DNA from: a virus | Virus record (IMG/VR): IMGVR_UViG_3300045741_000110 | Coordinates: 1 to 34,672 of that record | DNA: 34,672 nt | Direction: 5' to 3' (one strand) | Shown here: in pieces, positions 4,603-31,293 of the stretch | Numbering within the stretch: position 1 is the first letter of the stretch | Layout of the letters: the number at the start of each line of letters is the position of its first letter | Notes under the pieces: model-generated | The model's input: only the letters and a program-made list of their open reading frames with translations | What the model was told of the DNA's origin: nothing | Database searches by the model: none | Program-made: the position numbers and the translations under genes

Positions 4603-5496
4603 ATGAGTAATGGCGACCTTCTTAAAGCACCAGCCTTTCAATTCTATCCTAAAGATTTCCTAACAGACTCAAGAGTGATGGCCATGAGCAATGAGGTCAG
4701 GGGGATGTATATAACCCTACTTTGCGTTGACTGGCTAAACGATGGTTTTTTTGAAACTGACATTTTAAAACTAGGTGGTTTTGAGTGGCGCGATCCTAGA
4801 GAAAGCGATTACGACAAAGTACTACCGGAGGATGTTGAATTTGAGCTTCAAGGGTGCTTCGTGCCCCATCCAACCAAGCTTCATCACTTAACGTCACCAC
4901 TGCTGTTAGAGGCACGCGAAAAGCAGCGATTATGGAGGGAAAAATCAGCTCTCGGAGGCAAGAAAGGTGCGGTAGTGCGTAAAGCTAGAGCAATTACTAG
5001 TAGTTACGAAAGGAAGGGTGGTAGTGAAATGGTACATACCAAACGTCAACCAAACGTCAACCAAATGCCTACTCTCCTGTCTCCTGTCTCCAGTCTTCAG
5101 TCTTCAGATCATAATTCAAATAATAAGGATTTAGGTATTAAGGTTATAGAGGGGGATGCAAGGGGGAGTAGGCTTCCGTTTTTCACAAATGAAAAAGAAA
5201 GCCCCGTTGTGTTTATGACCCAAGAGGAAAAAATAAAACTCGACACAAAGCTTGGAACCGAGTGCACTAAATTTTTAATCGGTCAGATGGAAGATTGGGC
5301 TAGAGATAATCCCAAGAGCTATAAAACCAAGAAAGACCATTATCGAACCATTATTAACATGTTTCGAATGCGTACCGCAGACGGTTCCTTATTCGGACTA
5401 CACCCAACTACAAAAGTTTATGGATTCTATGCGAACTGGGTGTTTAAGTTAAACGAAGAACGCAAAGCACCCAATTTTGGAGCAAATAAGGTTTAA
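4603..5496 (+). CDS. DUF1376 (YdaU-like) putative replication initiator
   Basis: A 297-aa protein. Residues about 9-110 match DUF1376: APAFQFYPKDFLTD, then MSNEVRGMYITLLCVDWLNDG, the signature of phage replication proteins of the YdaU/GpO-like group. Residues about 140-185 are a low-complexity linker (QPNVNQMPTLLSPVSSLQSS), and the C-terminal part (HYRTIINMF...YGFYANWVF) may contact the host helicase or loader. The linker DNA carries tandem repeats next to an AT-rich block, as in lambda O. The ATG at 4603 has no clear ribosome site but starts right before the domain. It probably loads the replisome on the phage origin. Confidence 0.8.
   Translation: MSNGDLLKAPAFQFYPKDFLTDSRVMAMSNEVRGMYITLLCVDWLNDGFFETDILKLGGFEWRDPRESDYDKVLPEDVEFELQGCFVPHPTKLHHLTSPLLLEAREKQRLWREKSALGGKKGAVVRKARAITSSYERKGGSEMVHTKRQPNVNQMPTLLSPVSSLQSSDHNSNNKDLGIKVIEGDARGSRLPFFTNEKESPVVFMTQEEKIKLDTKLGTECTKFLIGQMEDWARDNPKSYKTKKDHYRTIINMFRMRTADGSLFGLHPTTKVYGFYANWVFKLNEERKAPNFGANKV
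5038..5150. repeat. Tandem repeats plus AT-rich block inside the replication gene, candidate origin
   Basis: ACCAAACGTCA occurs twice in tandem (5038-5048 and 5049-5059) with a third partial copy from 5060. CTCCTGT is repeated at 5074-5080 and 5081-5087, and AGTCTTC at 5092-5098 and 5099-5105. Then comes an AT-rich stretch to about 5150. In lambdoid phages the origin is a set of iterons inside the gene of the initiator protein, followed by an AT-rich unwinding element; the arrangement here is the same, which is the basis for the inference. Confidence 0.55.
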
Positions 5497-5514
5497 CTAA
5501 CATTGGAGTATTTT

Positions 5515-5817
5515 ATGAAACTAACGGATGAACAGCTTGTGTCGGTGCTAAGAAGTGCGACGCGATTGGTAGAGGCGATGTGCGCAGATGACATGACCTA
5601 TGAGCAGTTAAAGATGGTCTTTCCTTGTATGATTTCAGGAATGGCAGAGGGTTTTATAGTTGCAACAGGTACCCCCTCATCGAAAGCGGCAGATGTGATT
5701 GATACCTTCTTTGATATCCTTACCCCACATATCTTTGTAGAGATTTACAAGGTGACGATGAAGAAATTACCGGAGATAAAAAAGGCACTAAAGGAGTACG
5801 AAGATGGAGAGTTATAA
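5515..5817 (+). CDS. Hypothetical protein after the replication gene, 100 aa
   Basis: A helical, acidic protein with no recognised domain (MKLTDEQLVSVLRSATRLVEAMCADDMTYEQLKMVF...). The ATG at 5515 is preferred to a TTG at 5503 because GGAG (5505-5508) lies 6 nt upstream and would overlap the longer start. It is in the same rightward operon as the DUF1376 protein and overlaps the next gene by 14 nt. Its place right after an initiator gene fits a replication accessory factor such as a helicase loader, but its length and sequence do not show this. Confidence 0.8.
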   Translation: MKLTDEQLVSVLRSATRLVEAMCADDMTYEQLKMVFPCMISGMAEGFIVATGTPSSKAADVIDTFFDILTPHIFVEIYKVTMKKLPEIKKALKEYEDGEL

Positions 5818-6187
5818 ATTCAGATCAAGTCCAGTTCCGGGCAATAAAGACGGGGAATTTTACGCTGTAAGAGCTACAAAATTAGAGATTGAGCACGAAA
5901 GAGCAGCGCAGAAAATAAGCGGGTTAGTTGAGGTTTTGTTAGATAACAACTCAAAGTTTATGGAGCGTGAAGAGCGCACCGTTTTTGACCCAAAGCGCAA
6001 AGTAAGTAGGCGAAAGATTGATTTTGCTTGTGAATATCTAGGCGGGCAGTGTGTAGCAAATCTAATTAACGAGCGGTTGTCAGTGCCAAGCGTAACCGAA
6101 TTAGTTTCCAAGAAAGGTTGGGTAGCTGCTTATAAAGTTATTCTTGATGAGCTAGTTTCTGAAACTTTGTCCGGTTTTAAAAAGTGA
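5804..6187 (+). CDS. Hypothetical basic protein, 127 aa
   Basis: I do not recognise this protein. It has an N-terminal region with strands, a charged helix (LEIEHERAAQKISGLVEVLLDNN) at about 27-50, a basic patch (DPKRKVSRRKIDF) and a C-terminal helical part. GGAG lies 8 nt before the ATG, inside the end of the upstream gene. It is the last gene of the rightward replication block; beyond it lies a convergent intergenic region. A nucleic-acid-related role is possible from the basic patch only. Confidence 0.78.
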   Translation: MESYKFRSSPVPGNKDGEFYAVRATKLEIEHERAAQKISGLVEVLLDNNSKFMEREERTVFDPKRKVSRRKIDFACEYLGGQCVANLINERLSVPSVTELVSKKGWVAAYKVILDELVSETLSGFKK

Positions 6188-6370
6188 GAAAAATTTCGCC
6201 TCTCAGAGTCTTAAAATCCCTTATATAGGCAAAATTGGGGTAGCGCTAATGATGAGATGGCAGTTTATAGCTCCTATAAGGCTCTAGGCTGGGCTAGGAC
6301 GGGTTGGGGGATACACTGACCTAGACTAGCTAGAAAGAACTCAACCTTGGGGCTTATAGAGGCTATAAAG
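6188..6370. other. Convergent intergenic region with two TTATAG palindromes
   Basis: No gene is seen. TTATAG-CTC-CTATAA lies at 6265-6279 and TTATAG-AGG-CTATAA at 6354-6368, two palindromes of the same arms with a 3-bp centre. They flank a G-rich stretch and end just beside the leftward terminator at 6371. No rho-independent terminator for the rightward genes ending at 6187 is evident, so these palindromes might be protein sites or processing hairpins. Confidence 0.5.
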
Positions 6371-6405
6371 AAAAACCCCGATTGAGGGATGAAGCTCAAC
6401 CGGGG
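6371..6405 (-). terminator. Rho-independent terminator of the leftward AAA+ operon
   Basis: The arms CCCCGATTGAG (6376-6386) and CTCAACCGGGG (6395-6405) form an 11-bp stem with one mismatch and an 8-nt loop. Read leftward, the stem is followed by TTTTT (6375-6371). There is no T run on the other side, so the terminator acts on transcripts coming from 9393 through 6430. Confidence 0.85.
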
Positions 6406-6429
6406 TACGTGGTGTTAGTGACAAGTTTG

Positions 6430-6507
6430 TTAATGTCGGTTCAACGCCTTTAAGCATACCAACAAACTTAAGGCACAGCAAATAGCTATTACAATTAGGA
6501 TGCCCAT
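6430..6507 (-). CDS. 25-aa hydrophobic membrane micropeptide
   Basis: The frame encodes MGILIVIAICCALSLLVCLKALNRH: one membrane helix (residues 2-18) with a short basic tail and three cysteines. The ATG at 6507 has AGG 7 nt upstream and starts 4 nt after the stop of the gene at 6512, and a terminator follows, so it is the last gene of the operon. Small phage membrane peptides can act as lysis regulators, exclusion factors or modulators of membrane proteins; which applies cannot be told. The end of the gene contains half of a 9-bp inverted repeat (AAGTTTGTT/AACAAACTT). Confidence 0.6.
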   Translation of the reverse strand: MGILIVIAICCALSLLVCLKALNRH

Positions 6508-6511
6508 ACAG

Positions 6512-6874
6512 CTACCTATCCTCAGGGAACATGATAGTTAGTACGGGCCTAGCATCATCGCCGGGGCCTACTTCTGCCCATATCACCTGAGTATTTTCAC
6601 CTAAGTTAGATTTGAAGCTAACTAGGTTGTCATCCATACCACCTAAACAAGCTGACAGTGTCTGACTAAGTAAGGCGGGTATTTTCTCTTCGTGATCCTC
6701 TACTCCCAACCACCTGCATATCGAGTCAGTGACGCAAACAGGAATCTTGAAATACCCCTTTGCAAGACTGGTTACGTCTACCAGTAACCCGTCATCTATG
6801 GCATTAGCCCTAGTATAGACTGATATAGGCTCGCCGAATACATCGCTAAACTCATCTTTTGCTTTCTGATTCAT
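6512..6874 (-). CDS. DUF6573-like protein
   Basis: A 120-aa protein. The segment FGEPISVYTRANAIDDGLLVDVTSLAKGYFKIPVCVTDSICRWL (about residues 13-56) closely follows the pattern of a family of small phage and plasmid proteins, which I know as DUF6573, marked by YTR.qAI.DG.LvDv. Its function is unknown. GGAGA precedes the ATG. It is the fourth main gene of the AAA+ operon, followed by the membrane micropeptide and the terminator. Similar proteins often sit in accessory operons, so it may not be part of the AAA+ machine. Confidence 0.75.
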   Translation of the reverse strand: MNQKAKDEFSDVFGEPISVYTRANAIDDGLLVDVTSLAKGYFKIPVCVTDSICRWLGVEDHEEKIPALLSQTLSACLGGMDDNLVSFKSNLGENTQVIWAEVGPGDDARPVLTIMFPEDR

Positions 6875-6897
6875 AAATATCTCCAGATTTTTATAAA

Positions 6898-7158
6898 TTA
6901 ATTAATACGGGCTTCAATTACATTTTTAAACTCCTCTAGGGCTTGCAGCACGACATTATCGCCATAGATTTTACGTGCTGAAAACAGTAGCATTTCACGC
7001 CATGAGCCGAATTTTGGTTGCGTTGCATAGGCAACGTCTCTTGCGTTAGCGATATCGGCGTACATGATGACGGCCTTTTCGCATTGCTCTTCACCGCTAA
7101 CTAGGGCAATCACTGTCTCCGCTAGTAATTCAGCGGGTAATCTACTTGTAATTTCCAT
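6898..7158 (-). CDS. Hypothetical protein, 86 aa
   Basis: A helical protein beginning MEITSRLPAELLAETVIALVSGEEQCEKAVIMYADIANARDVAY; no family is recognised. The ATG at 7158 is chosen because GGAG lies 9 nt upstream. A longer frame to 7221 would start inside a leader with two hairpins: GGTATG/CATACC (about 7190-7211) and GGATC/GATCC. These may mark partial termination between the AAA+ pair and the last genes of the operon. Confidence 0.75.
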   Translation of the reverse strand: MEITSRLPAELLAETVIALVSGEEQCEKAVIMYADIANARDVAYATQPKFGSWREMLLFSARKIYGDNVVLQALEEFKNVIEARIN

Positions 7159-7224
7159 GATATTATTCTCCAGATAAAGGATCTTAATTGATCCAGGTAT
7201 GAGTAATACCCATACCCGCATGAA

Positions 7225-8067
7225 TTAGGATTCAAGCTCAATTCCTTGTGTTTTTATCAGCTCTAGTGCCCTAGTTTCCCATATAGACTGACTTGTCTCA
7301 TTCTCTAATATCTTAGGAAATACTACAGCATTGTCTGAGCCATACCATTGATCACGGGCATGTTTGTGTAATTGGCAAGATGATCCGTAAGACGCCCAAC
7401 CACCCTCAACGGCTACCCTATTTCTATAGGTGCTACCTCCCTCTTCCTGCATCCTAAAGAATACCCGTCTAAAGGCTGAAGGGTGAATGATGTAGAATGC
7501 TACAATGGCGGGATCTAAAAACTCCCCCGGCTCTCTTAATCTTAGCTCACAGCTAAAAGTGTGAGTGTCATTACTAGAGCAGACAAATAGTGATATGCCT
7601 ACACTGTAACCTTTAAGCTCTAGAGCGCGGACCATGGAGTAGATAGCCCTGCCACGGGCTAGAACTGTATCTGCATTTATGTGGCAGTTGTAGCCAATAT
7701 CAATAGCTATCTTTACTATTTTGCTATTCTCACGGTTATTAAATGCAAGCAGACATTCAGGCTCACCCGATAAAAACCTACCAACATCTAATGAGGAGCC
7801 GCACACATCATAAGTCATGTCGATGCTCTCATGATGCTGATTAGCTATCTTTGTTTGATAGCGTTGTGCCGCCTCTTCTAAGTCTGCTGCCTCTTTGGGT
7901 AACCCTGATTGTGTAGCTAGCACCACACAATCAGGGAAGTTAAGACACGAACCAAAGAATCTATCATCTTTAGTTTTAACTCTATGGCTTGCGTCATTGG
8001 GATCTACTGGCGGCCGGGCTAACAGCTCTCGGACTTCAGATAAATTTCTTGAAAATATATAATCCAT
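7225..8067 (-). CDS. Partner protein of the AAA+ ATPase, possible VWA-like domain
   Basis: A 280-aa protein carrying SLDVGRFLSGEPECLLAF (about residues 91-108), a motif I associate with uncharacterised phage and plasmid proteins encoded beside MoxR/CobS-type ATPases. The following alternating pattern (IVKIAIDIGYN...GRAIYSMVRALELKGYSVGISLFV) looks like a Rossmann/VWA-type core; a classical DxSxS metal site is not visible. AAA+/VWA pairs act as chaperones that insert metals or remodel protein complexes. It is one base from the ATPase gene, with its own AAGGAG site, so the two are co-expressed. The exact target is unknown. Confidence 0.65.
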   Translation of the reverse strand: MDYIFSRNLSEVRELLARPPVDPNDASHRVKTKDDRFFGSCLNFPDCVVLATQSGLPKEAADLEEAAQRYQTKIANQHHESIDMTYDVCGSSLDVGRFLSGEPECLLAFNNRENSKIVKIAIDIGYNCHINADTVLARGRAIYSMVRALELKGYSVGISLFVCSSNDTHTFSCELRLREPGEFLDPAIVAFYIIHPSAFRRVFFRMQEEGGSTYRNRVAVEGGWASYGSSCQLHKHARDQWYGSDNAVVFPKILENETSQSIWETRALELIKTQGIELES

Positions 8068-8068
8068 A

Positions 8069-9265
8069 TTAGTTTAGCTCCTTAGTCATGCGAGATACTT
8101 GATCAGATGTTAAACCACGATAAAGAATGCCAGAATCTAGCCAAGCTTTACCAATACCGTGCTTGATTAGATCACAGCCTATCTTTGTTGCTCTAGGTGA
8201 TATGGTGCAAGGAATTGATAGCTTTTCTTGAACCGCTCTAGCTTTACGAACTCTATATAGCCAGTCTTCAGGCTTAACTTCGCCCCCTGCCGTATAATCA
8301 ACCGGCTCTTGTGATTCTTCTATGCCTGCAAAGTGTGCCTCTAATGATGGATCGATATCTACTTTAAGCATGTAGAATCTATCTAGTATGGCCCCATCTT
8401 GAGCCGATCTACCCTTTGCCGCCGTAGTAGCACCGTTCATCTGAGTATTACCACCCGCTATCACGCAGAAGTTCTCATGAGCATCAATACGCTTGCCATC
8501 GGGAAAGCTCATAGTACGTGATGAGAGCGCAGCGCACAGCTTTAGAAATATAGACGGATTGCAAGCATCAGCCTCGTCTAAGATCAGTAGCTTGCCATTC
8601 TCCATAGCGTCTCTAACTTGCGAGCTGATATACTTATCACCCCACATATAACCAGTAAGGGAAGATTCTGAAGATTGTGGGCTAAAGGTAGCTACCTGAT
8701 AATCTAGGCCCATTAGCTTAGCTGCCTCGATTGCTATTACGGTTTTACCAGTGCCGAACGAACCCCATAGGTAGGTATTAACCCTAGCCTGCAGTAGTTT
8801 GATCACAAGCGGGAACAAGTAATGCTGTTTTGATGAGCTACGCTTAATCTCTGAATCTTTTACGTACTCAAAGGTGATTGTAGTAGCTGCATGTTTCTTT
8901 ATCAGCTCTATTACCCGCGATTCATCGATATCAGCTTTTGGAGCTGTACCCATTAACTCCTCTAATGCCTTAGCAACGGCACTAAGTTTGTCTTTATCAG
9001 CCTTAGCTGCAAAGTGTGGCTCTTTATAGTCATAGGGCACCGGCACGGCATTAGGGATAATATCATCACATATCCATTCTCTAAGTTGTGCTTTTGACCA
9101 TGCTTGCCATGTGCTAGCTAGCAGGCCCGGTGGAGTCTTACACGCCATGCAATATTTAAGTAGCTCTTTACGATCACACTCTGCTACCTGCTTAGTGATT
9201 GCGGTACCGCTAATGCTATCTATTCCCACTGCTATGATTGTTTCTAGGTTCATATGTTCATCCAT
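8069..9265 (-). CDS. MoxR/CobS-like AAA+ ATPase
   Basis: A 398-aa protein with a helical N-terminal domain (1-140) and an AAA+ module: Walker A GSFGTGKT (168-175), Walker B LLILDEAD (226-233), sensor-1 GGNT (271-274) and a likely arginine finger in LDRFYML (Arg296). The TGYMWGD and NGATTAAKGRS segments fit the MoxR/CobS/CbbQ clade, whose members form hexamers and remodel partners with VWA domains. Despite the similarity to CobS, there are no cobalamin genes here. The start may be ATG 9265 or the fifth codon (9253), which has GGATGA upstream. The next gene encodes the probable partner. Confidence 0.88.
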   Translation of the reverse strand: MDEHMNLETIIAVGIDSISGTAITKQVAECDRKELLKYCMACKTPPGLLASTWQAWSKAQLREWICDDIIPNAVPVPYDYKEPHFAAKADKDKLSAVAKALEELMGTAPKADIDESRVIELIKKHAATTITFEYVKDSEIKRSSSKQHYLFPLVIKLLQARVNTYLWGSFGTGKTVIAIEAAKLMGLDYQVATFSPQSSESSLTGYMWGDKYISSQVRDAMENGKLLILDEADACNPSIFLKLCAALSSRTMSFPDGKRIDAHENFCVIAGGNTQMNGATTAAKGRSAQDGAILDRFYMLKVDIDPSLEAHFAGIEESQEPVDYTAGGEVKPEDWLYRVRKARAVQEKLSIPCTISPRATKIGCDLIKHGIGKAWLDSGILYRGLTSDQVSRMTKELN

Positions 9266-9271
9266 TAATTA

Positions 9272-9346
9272 TTAAAAATTAGTATTTAGTTCCCAAAAGA
9301 TTAGAGCGCTTATAACGATTGAAAGTATCAGTACTGGCATATCCAT
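9272..9346 (-). CDS. 24-aa membrane micropeptide before the AAA+ gene
   Basis: MDMPVLILSIVISALIFWELNTNF: a single hydrophobic helix (residues 4-18) with a short polar tail. The ATG at 9346 has AGGA 5 nt upstream; an in-frame ATG at 9352 is also possible. It is the first gene after the promoter at 9388-9415 and ends 7 nt before the ATPase start, so it could act as a leader or as a membrane component. It resembles the micropeptide at the end of the same operon in size and hydrophobicity, not in sequence. Confidence 0.5.
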   Translation of the reverse strand: MDMPVLILSIVISALIFWELNTNF

Positions 9347-9387
9347 ATTCATCCTATTAGTTAGAGTTAATAACCACTATCATCATA

Positions 9388-9415
9388 CTTACACCATACT
9401 ATCGTATGATGTCAA
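9388..9415 (-). promoter_or_regulatory. Leftward promoter of the AAA+ operon with operator
   Basis: On the minus strand a consensus TTGACA (9415-9410) is followed after 16 nt by TGTAAG (9393-9388), four of six matches. The spacer contains the palindrome CATAC-TATC-GTATG (9395-9408), related to the operator at 3906-3920. A second ATCATACT lies at 9383-9390. The -35 is strong and the -10 moderate. Confidence 0.6.
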
Positions 9416-9734
9416 CAATACTTTAGTAGATTTTAGAAAATATTTAGATGGGAGTTTTAGATCGTACCTGATAATGGATAGAGTAGGTTTATATATTGGG
9501 AGAAGAAGAGAACCTAAAGAGAGGAACCTATAAGGAGGAGAGATAAGGAGAGCAGATAAGGGATAGATCTATACTGATAATTCTATAGTTCTCTCTTGTG
9601 TATGTTAATACATGTAAGATGTTATTAGATCTGATATGAGGTATAGAGCCTTAAGGGATCGGGCAGGGGTAGATAGCGCCATTGGGGTACCTATCGTGCA
9701 TTGACATAAGTCTATACTCTTCTATATCGCATTA

Positions 9735-9861
9735 GGTAATCAATTCAGTAGCACTACGGCCAATAGTACCCATTCGGTGTAGTTCCAATATGCTTGCTTA
9801 CCTAGTAATATCAATGACTTGCTAAATAATTGACTGATAACAATACTTATCGGTCAATTTT
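9735..9861 (+). ncRNA. Candidate small RNA between promoter 9701-9728 and hairpin 9830-9857
   Basis: A consensus -35 TTGACA (9701-9706) is spaced 16 nt from TATATC (9723-9728), predicting a rightward start near 9735. About 95 nt later, an 11-bp stem with one G-U type mismatch is followed by TTTT. No reading frame is present between them. Both neighbouring operons run leftward, so a rightward transcript here would be a stand-alone RNA. This is inferred from the two signals only. Confidence 0.35.
9830..9861. terminator. Terminator-like stem-loop
   Basis: TTGACTGATAA (9830-9840) pairs with TTATCGGTCAA (9847-9857), loop of six bases. The plus strand continues with TTTT, the minus strand with TTATTT. 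It is AT-rich, so termination would be modest. It could end the leftward operon coming from 11367 as well as a rightward RNA. Confidence 0.45.
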
Positions 9862-9937
9862 GAATTAACGAAAAAAAGATTTTGATACCCCTGCTGCTGT
9901 GGCTGTTACCCCACCTGGCATTTTCCCCTTTACTAAC

Positions 9938-9952
9938 CATTGGTTATCAATG
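9938..9952. promoter_or_regulatory. Operator copy CATTG-GTTAT-CAATG
   Basis: This palindrome has the same 5-5-5 layout as the operator at 11382-11396. On the plus strand it lies between TTTACT (9929-9934) and TTTGAT (9953-9958), in the same position as between the boxes of the promoter at 11376, but with weaker boxes. Transcription from here would run antisense into the HTH gene at 9969-10298. Confidence 0.55.
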
Positions 9953-9968
9953 TTTGATTATGATATTA

Positions 9969-10298
9969 TTACGGCAGTTCCAGCGTTAACGCTATAACGC
10001 CCAGTACTACTAGGGCCAGCATCCCTATAGAGCCCACCATAAGCGCTAGACGCCCCTGGGTTGATATTATCTGCTCTAGTTGGTCTAATCGGGTAGGGTC
10101 AGGTAGTGGCATTCCGTACGTCTCGTATAGACCTTTTAAATGCCTGATGCATCTTTGCGCTGTTAAGGTAGGCGGTATGATATCTTCATCCTCTATCTGG
10201 ACTAGGTACACTTCCCGCATCTGTAACTCTTTAGCTAGCTCGTAGGTTGAGAGGTGCAAGCCCTCTCTTAGCATCTTGATTTCAGGTCCGGGGTTCAT
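9969..10298 (-). CDS. XRE-type HTH protein with a C-terminal membrane anchor
   Basis: A 109-aa protein. Residues 5-45 look like an XRE/Cro HTH (IKMLREGLHLSTYELAKELQMREVYLVQIED), followed by a proline-containing linker (to about 70), a helix, and a clear membrane segment at about 84-107 (LALMVGSIGMLALVVLGVIALTLEL). A DNA-binding head on a membrane tail resembles the layout of RodZ or of membrane-bound regulators, in reduced form. It is the last gene of the leftward operon from 11376; an operator copy lies 17 bp beyond its stop. It might be a membrane-bound repressor or a morphogenesis-like factor; DNA binding is inferred. Confidence 0.7.
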   Translation of the reverse strand: MNPGPEIKMLREGLHLSTYELAKELQMREVYLVQIEDEDIIPPTLTAQRCIRHLKGLYETYGMPLPDPTRLDQLEQIISTQGRLALMVGSIGMLALVVLGVIALTLELP

Positions 10299-10564
10299 AT
10301 CTCTTCGAACTCTTCATCCTCTATCTCTTCCGGTCTAGATTTAGATTTAGAGATTACCCCTCTTACTTTATCCATCTTTAGATTCATCTCAACCATTAAA
10401 GCCATCACTTCTTCTTGCAGGGCTTGCGCTGTAGGTTCTAAGGGTGCGTCTATTGGTATTCTAATCTGCCAGCCGCCGTAGATAATAACTTCGTTGCTGG
10501 TAGGTGAGTACTCACACTGGATTTGAGCTTCTCTAAGCAGACTTATTAAACTATATTTTGCCAT
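10295..10564 (-). CDS. Hypothetical acidic protein, 89 aa
   Basis: No family is recognised. The N-terminal half shows short strands (QCEYSPTSNEVIIYGGWQIRIP), then a helix (LEPTAQALQEEVMALMVEMNLKMDKV) and an acidic tail (PEEIEDEEFEEI). It is linked by ATGA to the membrane-anchored HTH gene downstream and by a TAATG junction to the gene upstream, so expression is coupled. Its constant neighbourhood suggests it could help the HTH protein, but that is inference. Confidence 0.78.
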   Translation of the reverse strand: MAKYSLISLLREAQIQCEYSPTSNEVIIYGGWQIRIPIDAPLEPTAQALQEEVMALMVEMNLKMDKVRGVISKSKSRPEEIEDEEFEEI

Positions 10565-10866
10565 TAATCTCCCTTAGTTTTCATCATCTCAACTACCTTC
10601 TGATGACCTTCTACCGCATCTTCATAGCTGGTGTATCTCTCAATCACGTCTGAGCCTTCCGAGAAGAATATGCACGTCTCCCATAGTATGGGCGGCCCTT
10701 CTCCAAATCCGTGATCTAAACCTAGAAACACAGTGCTGATAGTAGTCCCACCAACCTCATCTTGGGCTACCTTTCTGTAGCTCATATCACCAAACTTATT
10801 AGCCCAAGTTTCCATGTCGCAGGGTATTGGATTATGCTCTTTGTCGTAGTCGTAAAAGTTACTCAC
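10564..10866 (-). CDS. Conserved phage protein with FLGLDHGFG motif, 100 aa
   Basis: The segment TTISTVFLGLDHGFGEGPPILWETCIFF...ERYTSYEDAVEGHQKVVEMM follows a pattern found widely in small phage proteins (flGlDH.fg.gpP.lfETmvF...RY.t...A..GH..vv). The family has no known activity that I can name; conserved Asp, His and Glu residues are seen in the motif. It is the third gene of the leftward operon and overlaps the previous gene by 8 nt. Recognition of the family is confident, its function is not. Confidence 0.85.
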   Translation of the reverse strand: MSNFYDYDKEHNPIPCDMETWANKFGDMSYRKVAQDEVGGTTISTVFLGLDHGFGEGPPILWETCIFFSEGSDVIERYTSYEDAVEGHQKVVEMMKTKGD

Positions 10867-11221
10867 GTCTTAACTCCTTAACTAAACCATTTAAACTAAG
10901 GGGCACACCCTTTTCAGCTACCGACTTGTTATATCTTTTCATCAACCACTCCATGCCCCATCTTGCGATGTAGATTGCAAGGCTCTGGTCGAAAGTCTCC
11001 GACCCCCTAGCCTTTAATTTGCTGGGTGTTGCTGAAACATCCTTAAGCTCGTTCCTTACTGCTGCTTCAAACTCTTCTATTAGCGTTGCCACTTTTGTCT
11101 CCTCTGGTTTTATTGGTTCTATTTTCTTGTAGAAATTATCACCTAACGGAGTCCAGTCGTCGGCTGGATCGGGCACCAAAGCGCCATCCTTCCATATCCA
11201 CCGACTAGTCCATGTGCTCAT
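10859..11221 (-). CDS. Hypothetical protein, 120 aa
   Basis: No family is recognised. The N-terminus is tryptophan-rich (STWTSRWIWKDGALVP), the rest mostly helical and charged, with SLAIYIARWGMEWLMKRYNK near the C-terminus. The start ATG at 11221 overlaps the TGA of the 49-aa membrane protein gene by 4 nt, indicating translational coupling to that first gene of the operon. Confidence 0.78.
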   Translation of the reverse strand: MSTWTSRWIWKDGALVPDPADDWTPLGDNFYKKIEPIKPEETKVATLIEEFEAAVRNELKDVSATPSKLKARGSETFDQSLAIYIARWGMEWLMKRYNKSVAEKGVPLSLNGLVKELRRE

Positions 11222-11412: not shown

Positions 11413-11616
11413 ATGAAAACAGTTAGCGTCATGTTGGATCAGGGTCGTCTAGATTACATCATAAAATCTATAACTCCTGGTGCCAGAGAATTTTCCAAAT
11501 GGGTTAGAGACGCTATCGATCTACGTATCGCTATGGAGTCAGAAGATGAGCCGAACGCTAACACTACAGAGACTAGAGGACGACGGGGTACAGACAACGG
11601 GAGTGATATCTCTTGA
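11413..11616 (+). CDS. Small ribbon-helix-helix-like protein
   Basis: A 67-aa protein whose first 45 residues fit an Arc/MetJ-type ribbon-helix-helix: a beta strand KTVSVML, helix DYIIKSITPG, then FSKWVRDAIDLRIAMES. Such proteins bind DNA as dimers and often repress neighbouring promoters. The C-terminal 20 residues are polar and disordered, encoded where the next gene already overlaps. AAAGG lies 6 nt before the ATG. It is divergent from the promoter at 11376 and only about 10 bp from it, so it may regulate that promoter. Confidence 0.65.
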   Translation: MKTVSVMLDQGRLDYIIKSITPGAREFSKWVRDAIDLRIAMESEDEPNANTTETRGRRGTDNGSDIS

Positions 11617-27111: not shown

Positions 27112-28058
27112 TGGCCATCAAAAGATGTGATGTCATCATAAGAAACGCTAGAATCTTAGCTCAGGCTGAAGATTGGTCAGCTACTAGCGGTATCTCTGAT
27201 GAATACCTACTAAGAGTACTAAATCACGCCAAGTTAAGACTGCAACGCTTGATTACCGTAACCCAAGCTACTCCCTATACTAAGTATTCTGTAGTCGCTG
27301 CTAACGGGACCGATGCTATCCCTATTCCTACCGACTGCTTTACTCAGGGCTCAATCTATACTGTTGAATACTCGGCTGACGGAAGTAATACTAACTATAT
27401 CACACTTGGGACGATGTATGAGAGAGGCGATAACCGCTCGCGTGCTCCTCTTTTTTGCATGGTAGAATCCTCAAGTATATTTTTTGATGCTAAAGTTGAT
27501 TCAGGAACTTTTCGTATCTGGTATGAAGCTGCTCTAGATAATCTAGATATTAGACGCGGGCAGGTCTTAAACTTAGGTGCGCCAGTAGGGAGTTTAGTTC
27601 CCTACATTCAGCTTTCTAACGGATTCTACGGGGCCTTATCTTCGAGCGAAGAGCTAGTCAACGCAGGCGATATAGATTTTATCTGCATAGTTGATAGGTA
27701 CGGTAACATCGTAGGTAGAAATGTAGGCGTAGAATTATATGACCCATCTCTAGATAGGCTCACCCTAACTAACGCAACTATTACAGATGATTTCTACTCT
27801 GTGGTTGGTCCAGCTATTCCGGTGACTCAGAAGTTCTATGTTACAATTGGCTTAAACACTACGACTCATCCGACTGGTCCAGACATATTTCAGGACTACT
27901 ACGAAGAGTTTTTAAGGTGGGAGATAGAGAAGCAAAGAAGCTCAATGAGTACTAACGAGGACTCTGAGAAGCTTAAAACCATAGCTGCTGAGATAGTAGA
28001 CCTATACGACTCACTACCAGACCTACAAACACTAGTGCCTGTAATGAGGAGAGATTAA
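27111..28058 (+). CDS. Head-to-tail connector/adaptor protein candidate
   Basis: A 315-aa protein. The N-terminal helices (DVIIRNARILAQ...DEYLLRVLNHAKLRLQRLI) and the C-terminal helices (DYYEEFLRWEIEKQRSSMSTNEDSEKLKTIAAEIVDLYDSL) flank a beta-rich core (IPIPTDCFTQGSIYTVEYS, RIWYEAALDNL). This layout fits the adaptor proteins that sit under the portal in short-tailed phages (P22 gp4- or T7 gp11-like). The place before the tailspikes and the hub gene supports it, though no family match is certain. Confidence 0.65.
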   Translation: MAIKRCDVIIRNARILAQAEDWSATSGISDEYLLRVLNHAKLRLQRLITVTQATPYTKYSVVAANGTDAIPIPTDCFTQGSIYTVEYSADGSNTNYITLGTMYERGDNRSRAPLFCMVESSSIFFDAKVDSGTFRIWYEAALDNLDIRRGQVLNLGAPVGSLVPYIQLSNGFYGALSSSEELVNAGDIDFICIVDRYGNIVGRNVGVELYDPSLDRLTLTNATITDDFYSVVGPAIPVTQKFYVTIGLNTTTHPTGPDIFQDYYEEFLRWEIEKQRSSMSTNEDSEKLKTIAAEIVDLYDSLPDLQTLVPVMRRD

Positions 28059-29560
28059 TGACCTTCATTACAACCTCTCTTGGACTTACTGTTAAGACTC
28101 CGTCTCAGGGGGACAGAAATTGGGCAGCTCAGTTCTTAACTGATTTTGTGCAGAAGATTTCTAGCCATGACCACACTGGCTCAGGTAGGGGCTTACAGCT
28201 TGGAACTAACGCAATTCTAAACGGAGCCATTACGCCTGCAAAGCTATCTTCTGGGGCGCAGATTTTTGTAAATGTAAAAACATATGGAGCTACCGGAGAC
28301 GGAACAACAGATGACACCGCCGCTATTCAATCGGCCATTAACGCAGTTAGATCGGCAGGCGGCGGGGTAGTATTCTTTCCGCAAGGAACCTACATAGTTT
28401 CGATATCTTTAAACTTCACAGGAATGGTGGGATTTGAGGTTTGGGGCTCTGGGCTTGGCGGTACCACTATTCGCCTTAACACGGCAGGTACTCCCGGTAT
28501 AGATTTAACAGGCAGTAGAAACTACTCCTTTAGAAACATGCTCATTTTTGCTGGTAGTGGCACCAACTCCCCCAATGTCGTCATATTAAAAGCTAGAAAC
28601 AATACCCTAGCTAGCGTTGGGCTAAGTGAGTTTAATAATGTTCAAATAGAAAGCCCAAATAGCGGGACTACTTGCAAAGCCGTTGTTTACTCCTATGCCT
28701 CCGAGGACGACTCGTATGTGAAGTGCAACCTATACACGCACGTAGCCTCAACTCCCGCTTTATACATAACAAGTAAGAACGACCTTTCGGTTACTAGTCT
28801 CTATCAAACTATTGCGACAGGTGAGCAGTCAAACACGGTAGTCAATTTCACTAGCGGCAGCATCCTAGATACGTCAGCGGGGTCGGGGGCGACGAGCGCC
28901 TACCCGGTTTACCTTCATAACGCTAGGGATATAACTTTCTTCAACTCATCGATGGTCGCAAACGGAGATGCGTTTTTCTACCTACTTTCGGATGGGCCGT
29001 CTAACTTAGTAGACGAGCTAAATGTTATCGGAGTAAGGTTCGAGCCCGGCTCGGCAAACCCACTCTACGTATTCAAGGGTGACGCTACAAATACTACTGT
29101 TATCTTAGGTGTCATAAGCGGAAATATTTTCAACGCCTCAACAGCGATTTATAAGCAGCTCGGTGGAACCGGGACGATTACTCAGCTCGGTGAATTTTCC
29201 TCCAATAACACCAATGGCTCTGCTCCAGCATACTTGATTAACACGACTGGGGATATTCAAGGCGGTCAAGTTGATTGCATGAATATGCAAGTAACGGGGC
29301 ACAATATTTTTGGAACCGTCTTTCGTAACGCTAGACATGTTGCAGATGTTGTAAATACAGCAGGTGCGTGTGGCTATGTCGTTATCAGCAATAGCGAAGG
29401 CGGCTCACCTGAATCGTTAATGAAGCTAGCCGGAAATATGAACCTATCCCTATCGCTACCAGTTTACGCCAACAACGCAGCAGCGATTACCGGCGGTCTT
29501 GTAGCTGGAATGCTTTATAGAACAGGAGCAAACCCAGATCCGGTTTGTATAGTGCACTAA
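28058..29560 (+). CDS. Tailspike 1, beta-helix (pectate-lyase-3-like)
   Basis: A 500-aa protein. Residues 1-66 (FITTSLGLTVKTPSQGDRNWAAQFLTDFVQKISSHDHTGSGRGL) form a virion-attachment module nearly shared with the next spike. From about 70, VNVKTYGATGDGTTDDTAAIQSAINAVRSAGGGVVFFPQGTYIVS is the start of a pectate-lyase-3/Glyco_hydro-28-like right-handed beta-helix; the end, GMLYRTGANPDPVCIVH, is a typical C-terminal element of phage fibres. Such spikes bind and often digest surface polysaccharide. The catalytic residues cannot be assigned. Confidence 0.85.
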   Translation: MTFITTSLGLTVKTPSQGDRNWAAQFLTDFVQKISSHDHTGSGRGLQLGTNAILNGAITPAKLSSGAQIFVNVKTYGATGDGTTDDTAAIQSAINAVRSAGGGVVFFPQGTYIVSISLNFTGMVGFEVWGSGLGGTTIRLNTAGTPGIDLTGSRNYSFRNMLIFAGSGTNSPNVVILKARNNTLASVGLSEFNNVQIESPNSGTTCKAVVYSYASEDDSYVKCNLYTHVASTPALYITSKNDLSVTSLYQTIATGEQSNTVVNFTSGSILDTSAGSGATSAYPVYLHNARDITFFNSSMVANGDAFFYLLSDGPSNLVDELNVIGVRFEPGSANPLYVFKGDATNTTVILGVISGNIFNASTAIYKQLGGTGTITQLGEFSSNNTNGSAPAYLINTTGDIQGGQVDCMNMQVTGHNIFGTVFRNARHVADVVNTAGACGYVVISNSEGGSPESLMKLAGNMNLSLSLPVYANNAAAITGGLVAGMLYRTGANPDPVCIVH

Positions 29561-31293
29561 TGAGCTTCATAACCACATCACTAGGCTTAACCTTAAAAAC
29601 TCCTGGAACCGGAGATAGAAATTGGGCTAATCAATTTCTGACTGATTTCGTACAGAAGATATCAGCACACGATCATTCGGGCTCTGGTAAAGGACTTAAG
29701 ATAGGTACTAGCGGCATCGCAGATGGAGCTATAACTTCCGCTAAGCTAGCAATTGGCCTAGCACCCTCAGTTATCAATGTTAAAGCTTACGGAGCTGTCG
29801 GAAACGGCGTAGTTGACGATACCACGGCAATTCAAAATGCTATTAACGCAGCTAATGCCGTAGGCGGTGGATGTGTATATTTTCCTTCTGGCACCTATTT
29901 AATAAGCAACTCTCTTATTGGCTATAGCAATATCACCTTCCAGGGTGATGGTGATTCTTCTGTTATCAAAAGTGCGATGTCATTAAGTTCAAATAAAGAC
30001 TTACTAAAATTTGTTGGGGCCACTACCACAAGTACTACACTAGGCGCTACTCCCGCCGTAGGAGATAGGCAGGTTCAGGTCGCATCTAGTGCGGGGTTTG
30101 TTGCCGGTGAGTATGTTTACCTAGTTAGCGCTAGTAATACCTGGGCAATGCTTCACCGAGTAAAATCAGTAGATGATGCAACACACATCACCTTCTGGGA
30201 GTGTATCGGATATCCTTGGGCAACTAGCGATGTCGTTCAGCGTGGTAACTGGGTAAGTTATTGCAAAGTGGATAAGCTTAAGTTTCAAGGCACTCAAATA
30301 GCAAACGAGCACACCACCGGACGCTACGAGGATCATGGTATCAATATCTGGATGGCCCATCACATCAATGTCACTAATTGCACGTTTCAGGAGCTAGGAA
30401 GTCGCGCAATTATCATGATCGATAAGGCTGCGCACTGCAAGGTTATCGGCAATCACGTCGTTAAATGCTACGACAGGGGTATAGAATCTCACGATAAGAC
30501 TCACGCAAATGTGATTATGGGGAACACCATCGAAGGCGGCCTGTATGGCATTAGCATACACGGCATTGGCACTGTCTGCTCTGGTAATAACATTAGCGGA
30601 ATGCACGGCTTTGATGCCGCAGATACGGAACACGGTATCGGCATAGCTCTTTCAAGCGCTCAGGGCGTGGTGGTAATCGGAAACACCATTACTGGCGTCT
30701 GGGAGGATGGTCTTAATATAGGCTCTAGTTATTACTCAACTATTGAAGGTAACAATGTCTTCTTTGCAAGAAGGCGCGGCGTCTATACTAGTAGCGTAAA
30801 TAACCTAAACATCGTTGGTAACAGTTTCTTTTCCTGCGGTTCGGTTGTGGGAGACGGGGTACTTACCTTCGATACGTCATCTAGCTACATAAACGTGGCC
30901 AGCAATCACTTCTATGCCACTCCAGGCGTCACTACTAGGGCTATTCAAGCAAGTAACGCACTAACTGGAATCGCTATTGGAATTAATTTCTATAACAATT
31001 TTCCATCAGCACCCTTTGATATTAACGCCTCGACTACTTTTCAGACTCCTATTTTTGCTGGCACTTTCACATTAGGAGCGGCAGTTACTACAGCAGTTTC
31101 AGAAAATAGAATAGCGACGGCAAGCGCTAAGATAATCTTAACCCCCACCAACGCAGCGGCAGCCACTCTTATGGGCTCTGCTAAGTGCTTATATATTTCA
31201 GCGGTAACTTGGGATGTGGGATTTACTGTAGCAACAGCAAACGCAGTAGCAGCGGCAGGCACAGAAACATTCTCTTATGAGGTAATTCAGTAA
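29560..31293 (+). CDS. Tailspike 2, beta-helix
   Basis: A 577-aa protein with the same 66-residue attachment module as the upstream spike (49 of 66 identical), then VINVKAYGAVGNGVVDDTTAIQNAINAANAVGGGCVYFPSGTYLIS and a long parallel beta-helix. Clear coil repeats are present (VIGNTITGVWEDGLNIGS, IEGNNVFFARRRGVYTSS, IVGNSFFSC). The C-terminal region is Ala-rich and differs from spike 1. It probably recognises a different surface polysaccharide than spike 1. The TAATG junction sets the start at 29560. Confidence 0.85.
   Translation: MSFITTSLGLTLKTPGTGDRNWANQFLTDFVQKISAHDHSGSGKGLKIGTSGIADGAITSAKLAIGLAPSVINVKAYGAVGNGVVDDTTAIQNAINAANAVGGGCVYFPSGTYLISNSLIGYSNITFQGDGDSSVIKSAMSLSSNKDLLKFVGATTTSTTLGATPAVGDRQVQVASSAGFVAGEYVYLVSASNTWAMLHRVKSVDDATHITFWECIGYPWATSDVVQRGNWVSYCKVDKLKFQGTQIANEHTTGRYEDHGINIWMAHHINVTNCTFQELGSRAIIMIDKAAHCKVIGNHVVKCYDRGIESHDKTHANVIMGNTIEGGLYGISIHGIGTVCSGNNISGMHGFDAADTEHGIGIALSSAQGVVVIGNTITGVWEDGLNIGSSYYSTIEGNNVFFARRRGVYTSSVNNLNIVGNSFFSCGSVVGDGVLTFDTSSSYINVASNHFYATPGVTTRAIQASNALTGIAIGINFYNNFPSAPFDINASTTFQTPIFAGTFTLGAAVTTAVSENRIATASAKIILTPTNAAAATLMGSAKCLYISAVTWDVGFTVATANAVAAAGTETFSYEVIQ

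Follow-up and report, generated by a model that had tools for sequence, protein, structure and literature searches.

The sequence studied was the 34.7-kb virus record IMGVR_UViG_3300045741_000110, and "the window" denotes this whole stretch of 34,672 nucleotides. The record belongs to a tailed phage, in which genes for a RecT-like annealing protein, a terminase, a portal, a major head protein and tailspike-like proteins were found. An initial annotation, made from the sequence alone, had placed a leftward gene unit in this record, and its six open reading frames (ORFs) of 398, 280, 86, 120, 24 and 25 amino acids were all located on the minus strand. Two of them are the subject of this work: a MoxR-class AAA+ ATPase of 398 amino acids (PHROG 249, Pfam AAA_5; 8069-9265, minus strand) and a 280-amino acid partner with a predicted VWA-like fold (DUF7192/PHROG 1909; 7225-8067, minus strand). 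A single base separates the two genes, which lie apart from the structural genes of the record and are encoded on the other strand. No close DNA-level relative of positions 5000-11000 was found in the phage collection, plasmid relatives were not found, and neither RNA families nor tRNA were detected within the window.

The ATPase

The ATPase matched Pfam AAA_5 at 3e-14 and PHROG 249 at 1.2e-30, the latter a family named 'porphyrin biosynthesis'. When a profile of ten relatives was compared with the PDB, Midasin AAA domains were retrieved first, followed by CobS (2.7e-22) and CbbQ/NorQ (7e-20). An AlphaFold2 model built from alignment A5 had a predicted local distance difference test score (pLDDT) of 79; the AAA+ core from about residue 141 was mostly above 90, and the first 90 residues were poorly predicted. 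The top 21 Foldseek matches to this model were NorQ and CbbQ, the best of them with E ~1e-13 and template modelling (TM) scores of 0.74-0.78 by target. NorQ and NorD are a MoxR AAA+ and VWA pair that inserts iron into nitric oxide reductase (cNOR).

Sequence and conservation placed Walker A at residues 168-175 (GSFGTGKT; 8741-8764, minus strand) and Walker B at residues 226-231 (LLILDE; 8573-8590, minus strand), where D230 and E231 were invariant in 42 of 42 sequences. The same was true of the arginine finger R296 in DRF (8378-8380, minus strand) and the sensor-2 arginine R358 in SPRA (8192-8194, minus strand), and sensor-1 N273 and the Walker A lysine were invariant across the 42 ATPases as well. 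The helix-2 insert that is diagnostic of the MoxR clade was modelled as a beta-hairpin at residues 205-213 (8627-8653, minus strand), with strands 206-208 and 211-213 flanked by helices 200-204 and 216-223, and the pre-sensor-1 hairpin comprised strands 251-253 and 259-261. An ATPase fold with both hairpins is shared with NorQ. The protein is an intact MoxR-class AAA+ ATPase with every active-motor residue; Pfam, PHROG, profile, model and Foldseek all bore out the original description of a MoxR/CobS-like ATPase with intact Walker A and B motifs. Hundreds of phages have such an ATPase in their annotation, frequently under the doubtful label of porphyrin or cobalamin synthesis, and the family label presumably derives from kinship with CobS.

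The DUF7192 partner

The partner was assigned to Pfam DUF7192 at 1.4e-34 and to PHROG 1909, neither of which gives a functional annotation, and the name DUF7192 was not found in the literature searched. Its AlphaFold2 model, built from 66 sequences (pLDDT 84.5, predicted TM score 0.81), has a beta-alpha-beta-beta-alpha core that runs from a strand at residues 117-123 through a helix at 132-151 and strands at 155-165 and 170-178 to helices at 186-208, followed later by a strand at 247-250 and a helix at 260-273. As modelled, the elements follow one another as in a reduced VWA domain.

In the Foldseek search of the PDB, ranks 1-4 were all NorQD entries, the matching chain being G, the VWA-bearing NorD (E 1.5e-4 to 9.8e-3, probability 0.98-1.00), and the metal ion-dependent adhesion site (MIDAS) domain of Midasin was a weak match at rank 13. 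The viral structure library returned the partner's own family first, and the next named matches (ranks 13-38) were nearly all VWA/CobT-like phage proteins. Since NorQ matched the ATPase and NorD matched the partner, the separate structure searches converge on one solved complex. The DUF7192 sequence profile gave chance matches only against PDB sequences. Comparison of ten phage CobT-like VWA proteins with DUF7192 gave a weak link (P = 5.5e-4; eight column-permuted controls gave 0.24-0.88 and the reversed alignment 0.049), which alone is modest evidence because about eight such profile comparisons were made in all.

The CobT-like alignment sets D123 of the partner opposite the MIDAS Asp. Together with the relatives, it places VWA strand 1 and a degenerate MIDAS-like DIGYN at residues 117-127 (7687-7719, minus strand). 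The canonical DxSxS-T-D is absent from the partner, DIGYN replacing DxSxS, and the commonest letters among the relatives were N at 123, T/S/G at 125 and S/N at 127. Because the fold matches and the profile link are combined with a degenerate MIDAS, we describe the fold as VWA-like and not as a canonical VWA domain, an assignment supported by the model. The VWA-type partner proposed earlier was thus recovered in its fold by Foldseek, and weakly by profile comparison, but not in its canonical MIDAS; a check of the same gene product for an unrelated enzyme fold brought none to light.

Immediately before strand 1, residues 78-116 (7720-7836, minus strand) were modelled as a strand at 85-87, a helix at 95-99 and a strand at 106-108; from the model and the position of the finger in NorD, this segment is a candidate pore finger. 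It contains GRFLSGEPEC (7753-7782), which the initial annotation had singled out. The motif is real, but it is typical of one family branch only: in the freer alignment A1 the first Gly of GEPEC alone was invariant, and the invariance of GEPEC in alignment A4 was a product of the fishing pattern, which contained it. An equation of the partner's GRFL with the GRxLL motif of the NorQD paper was dropped, because GRxLL belongs to the helix-2 insert of NorQ and not to NorD. The C-terminal helix of the partner bears a nearly invariant Gly275.

Current annotation would make the pair an auxiliary to metal chelation or metal insertion, in cobalamin or porphyrin synthesis. Kinship to CobS/CobT and NorQ/NorD speaks for such a role, the likeness to the CobS/CobT cobaltochelatase lying in the ATPase. 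This explanation is nevertheless very improbable: the largest ORF encodes 852 amino acids and none is CobN-sized (in a record that is possibly incomplete), the partner is not canonical and has a degenerate MIDAS, and the ATPase is structurally nearest NorQ and CbbQ.

Conservation of the gene pair

Co-conservation of the two genes was one of two tests set beforehand that could have refuted the proposed machine. A search with the partner only yielded 63 IMG/VR viral and 12 cellular loci, and the ATPase was found alongside in 75 of 75, although the loci were fished by the motif of one branch, include some near-duplicates and are not independent. Single-protein scans of IMG/VR found no relatives. 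Among the 74 loci tallied for orientation (the window, reference phages and IMG/VR), the two genes were on one strand in all 74 and the ATPase came first in 73, the sole exception being an Enterococcus phage. The genes were mostly direct neighbours in the reference phages, with one or two genes intervening in Acinetobacter and Rhizobium phages. The partner is a near-obligate neighbour of the ATPase. DUF7192 was present in phages of Staphylococcus, Mycobacterium, Gordonia, Listeria, Enterococcus, Acinetobacter and Rhizobium and in many environmental phages. Two DUF7192 ORFs were observed beside a single ATPase at loci L067 and L084 (3366-5555 in each) and L077 (4674-6603), from Spirosoma and Trebonia, and in cluster L mycobacteriophages a further DUF7192 lies at a distance of about 3-4 kb.

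Gordonia, Tsukamurella and Rhodococcus phages and Thermus phage P74-26 have a related ATPase (hmmsearch 1e-5 to 1e-13, within a small set) ahead of a classical VWA/CobT-like protein, either adjacent or a few genes away. This arrangement suggests that DUF7192 substitutes for the VWA partner. Pairs such as GMA7_72/GMA7_71 of a Gordonia phage and P74p49/P74p48 of P74-26 share the related ATPase and the ATPase-then-VWA order, and the Gordonia-type CobT-like partner has the weak profile link to DUF7192; their partners differ in being about 560-890 amino acids long with an intact DxSxS MIDAS motif.

The mycobacteriophage LeBron encodes a homolog of the ATPase, gp128 (L075 2291-3535; 29% identity, 5e-27), which adjoins the DUF7192 protein gp127. 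Its overexpression in M. smegmatis caused a >3-log loss of viability, placing it among the most toxic LeBron genes, and neither gp127 nor gp120 was listed as toxic (PMC13148394). No other experimental pointer to the function of the pair was found. The authors, noting an HHpred match to MCM6, suggested a helicase (PMC13148394), and a replication helicase that unwinds DNA would suit the nucleic-acid genes in the neighbourhood of the pair. We judge this function to have very little chance of being right, given that the structure matches NorQ/CbbQ best and not MCM, that the MoxR helix-2 insert is present and that the VWA-like partner is near-obligate. By family, LeBron gp128 is a MoxR-class ATPase.

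We read the two genes as a MoxR-class AAA+/VWA-like chaperone pair that works like NorQ/NorD, with a probability of about 0.75. The likeness to NorQ/NorD extends to the partner, for which NorD is the best structural match and in which an element before strand 1 occupies the finger position. There are also differences: the phage partner has 280 amino acids, versus 69 kDa for NorD, with no N-terminal target domain detected; its MIDAS is degenerate; no NorD-sized partner lies beside the ATPase in the record; and no cNOR target is known in this phage. Several points weigh against this reading. The Foldseek TM score between the partner and NorD is only 0.27-0.36 by query length, which makes for a poor global superposition. 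A comparison with profiles of cellular VWA_CoxE domains was not significant, a shortened comparison being likewise unconvincing. Of 66 relatives, 44 have Asn and 6 have Asp at position 123, and an equivalent of the second MIDAS Asp was not found in the DUF7192 family. Toxicity on overexpression can be an artefact, and we infer both the binding of the partner to the ATPase and the role of the finger.

Flanking genes and regulatory sequences

The remaining ORFs of the unit are an 86-amino acid protein of unknown family (6898-7158, minus strand; ATG at 7158, with a 107-amino acid version beginning farther upstream), a 120-amino acid DUF6573 protein (6512-6874, minus strand), a 24-amino acid hydrophobic ORF preceding the ATPase (9272-9346, minus strand; ATG at 9346) and a 25-amino acid hydrophobic ORF closing the unit (6430-6507, minus strand). 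Pfam confirmed the DUF6573-like protein at 9e-13. DUF6573 was not found in 45 related virus records, nor the 86-amino acid protein in 39, in searches that had no positive control among those records; the two proteins are neighbours and no conserved part of the pair. The proposed membrane micropeptides exist as ORFs with a hydrophobic stretch, but similar ones are scarce, since small membrane ORFs with a ribosome-binding site occurred upstream in 3 and downstream in 11 of 52 related loci. Membership of these four ORFs in the machine, as first proposed, was therefore not sustained by the surveys of related loci and was rejected, with the reservation that the family searches lacked a positive control.

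A strong intrinsic terminator was confirmed at 6375-6406 on the minus strand (12 bp stem, -20.1 kcal/mol, z -5.95). The operator-bearing promoter described at the other end proved weak. TTGACA at 9415-9410 lacks a consensus -10 at a spacing of 16-18 nt and was absent from the promoter scan, which found no more promoters in the window than in shuffles. At 9381-9411 an 8-bp inverted repeat, CATCATAC/GTATGATG, surrounds a 14-bp near-palindrome, CATACGATAGTATG. This possible operator is suggestive only, because the single repeat and near-palindrome occur once in the window.

Upstream of the unit is an AT-rich stretch of about 400 bases (9420-9800) with no evident gene, and beyond this gap a 109-amino acid protein (9969-10298, minus strand) with an N-terminal helix-turn-helix (HTH) and a C-terminal hydrophobic helix, which looks like a membrane-anchored HTH protein. 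Elsewhere on the plus strand, a 67-amino acid protein (11413-11616) resembles a ribbon-helix-helix regulator by eye only, and a 297-amino acid protein (4603-5496) weakly matched phage primosomal proteins (PHROG 9327, E = 0.003). Two adjacent tailspike-like proteins (28058-29560 and 29545-31293, plus strand) have near-identical N-termini and differing C-terminal parts, possibly reflecting a duplicated head-binding part.

Discussion

In NorQD, a single strand links the MIDAS to a finger that reaches into the NorQ pore; target remodelling requires this finger, and the C-terminus of NorD holds the NorQ ring (PMC13036017, PMC9976466). By analogy, the phage ATPase would form a hexameric ring onto which the DUF7192 partner would dock, inserting the segment before strand 1, GEPEC included, into the pore. 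Residues 78-116 may correspond by their place to the NorD finger, and the C-terminal helix with Gly275 could make a second contact with the ring. ATP hydrolysis would then turn or pull the finger and strain a target that the partner binds at another site; given the degenerate MIDAS, this binding probably does without a canonical MIDAS metal.

The weakest step concerns the target. We tentatively place it inside the infected cell, as a host or non-structural phage protein complex that would be remodelled there, because LeBron gp128 is toxic to the host and the pair lies outside the structural genes. The same machine could instead act on phage structural proteins as a virion-assembly chaperone. 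The Acidianus two-tailed virus (ATV) p618/p892 and jumbo-phage MoxR/vWA pairs offer a precedent and a proposal for this (PMC7824862, PMC7911831), and the occurrence of our pair in otherwise very different tailed phages is in keeping with it. Those pairs are likewise virus-encoded MoxR/VWA pairs, but here the partner is DUF7192 and evidence for a virion role was not found. The pair is on the opposite strand to the structural genes and away from them, the genes that recur beside it in relatives include those for DUF3846, PD-(D/E)XK nuclease and zinc-ribbon proteins, with head and tail genes not a main theme, and the toxicity of the LeBron ATPase points to host targets; a role in virion assembly appears rather unlikely.

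The initial annotation had suggested host takeover, defence or counter-defence, among which the evidence draws no distinction. A superinfection exclusion or anti-phage defence module is improbable. Proposed bacterial conflict systems do have MoxR-vWA pairs at their core (PMC7159879), but PADLOC gave no significant match (best DolB, E = 0.043), the neighbours scanned showed no conserved third component or effector, and lytic phages, Staphylococcus phage K among them, often carry the pair. VMAP, iSTAND, FtsH and beta-propeller proteins were not among the recurrent neighbours scanned, in which no dedicated model search was made.

Returning to the NorQ/NorD-like chaperone pair, a more speculative and doubtful extension is that DUF7192 represents a minimal VWA co-chaperone, its MIDAS largely lost and its pore finger kept. 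The machine of hundreds of unrelated phages would then be a stripped NorQD-type one, gripping a host complex through a non-MIDAS surface and reshaping it in the course of infection.

MoxR/VWA pairs have been described for ATV, haloviruses, jumbo phages and Bacillus phage 0305phi8-36. The function of phage pairs of this kind had been called undescribed, which does not hold for viral MoxR/VWA pairs in general but does for the DUF7192 pair, whose function has no tests in the literature searched. Within that literature, it is new to view DUF7192 as a VWA-like partner, reduced and with a degenerate MIDAS, that has a candidate pore-finger segment. DUF7192/PHROG 1909 gains a likely fold and a partner, and the evidence argues against labelling the ATPase as porphyrin biosynthesis or as an MCM-like helicase. 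Two questions thereby become testable: which protein this widespread phage motor targets, and why the motor alone is toxic to the host.

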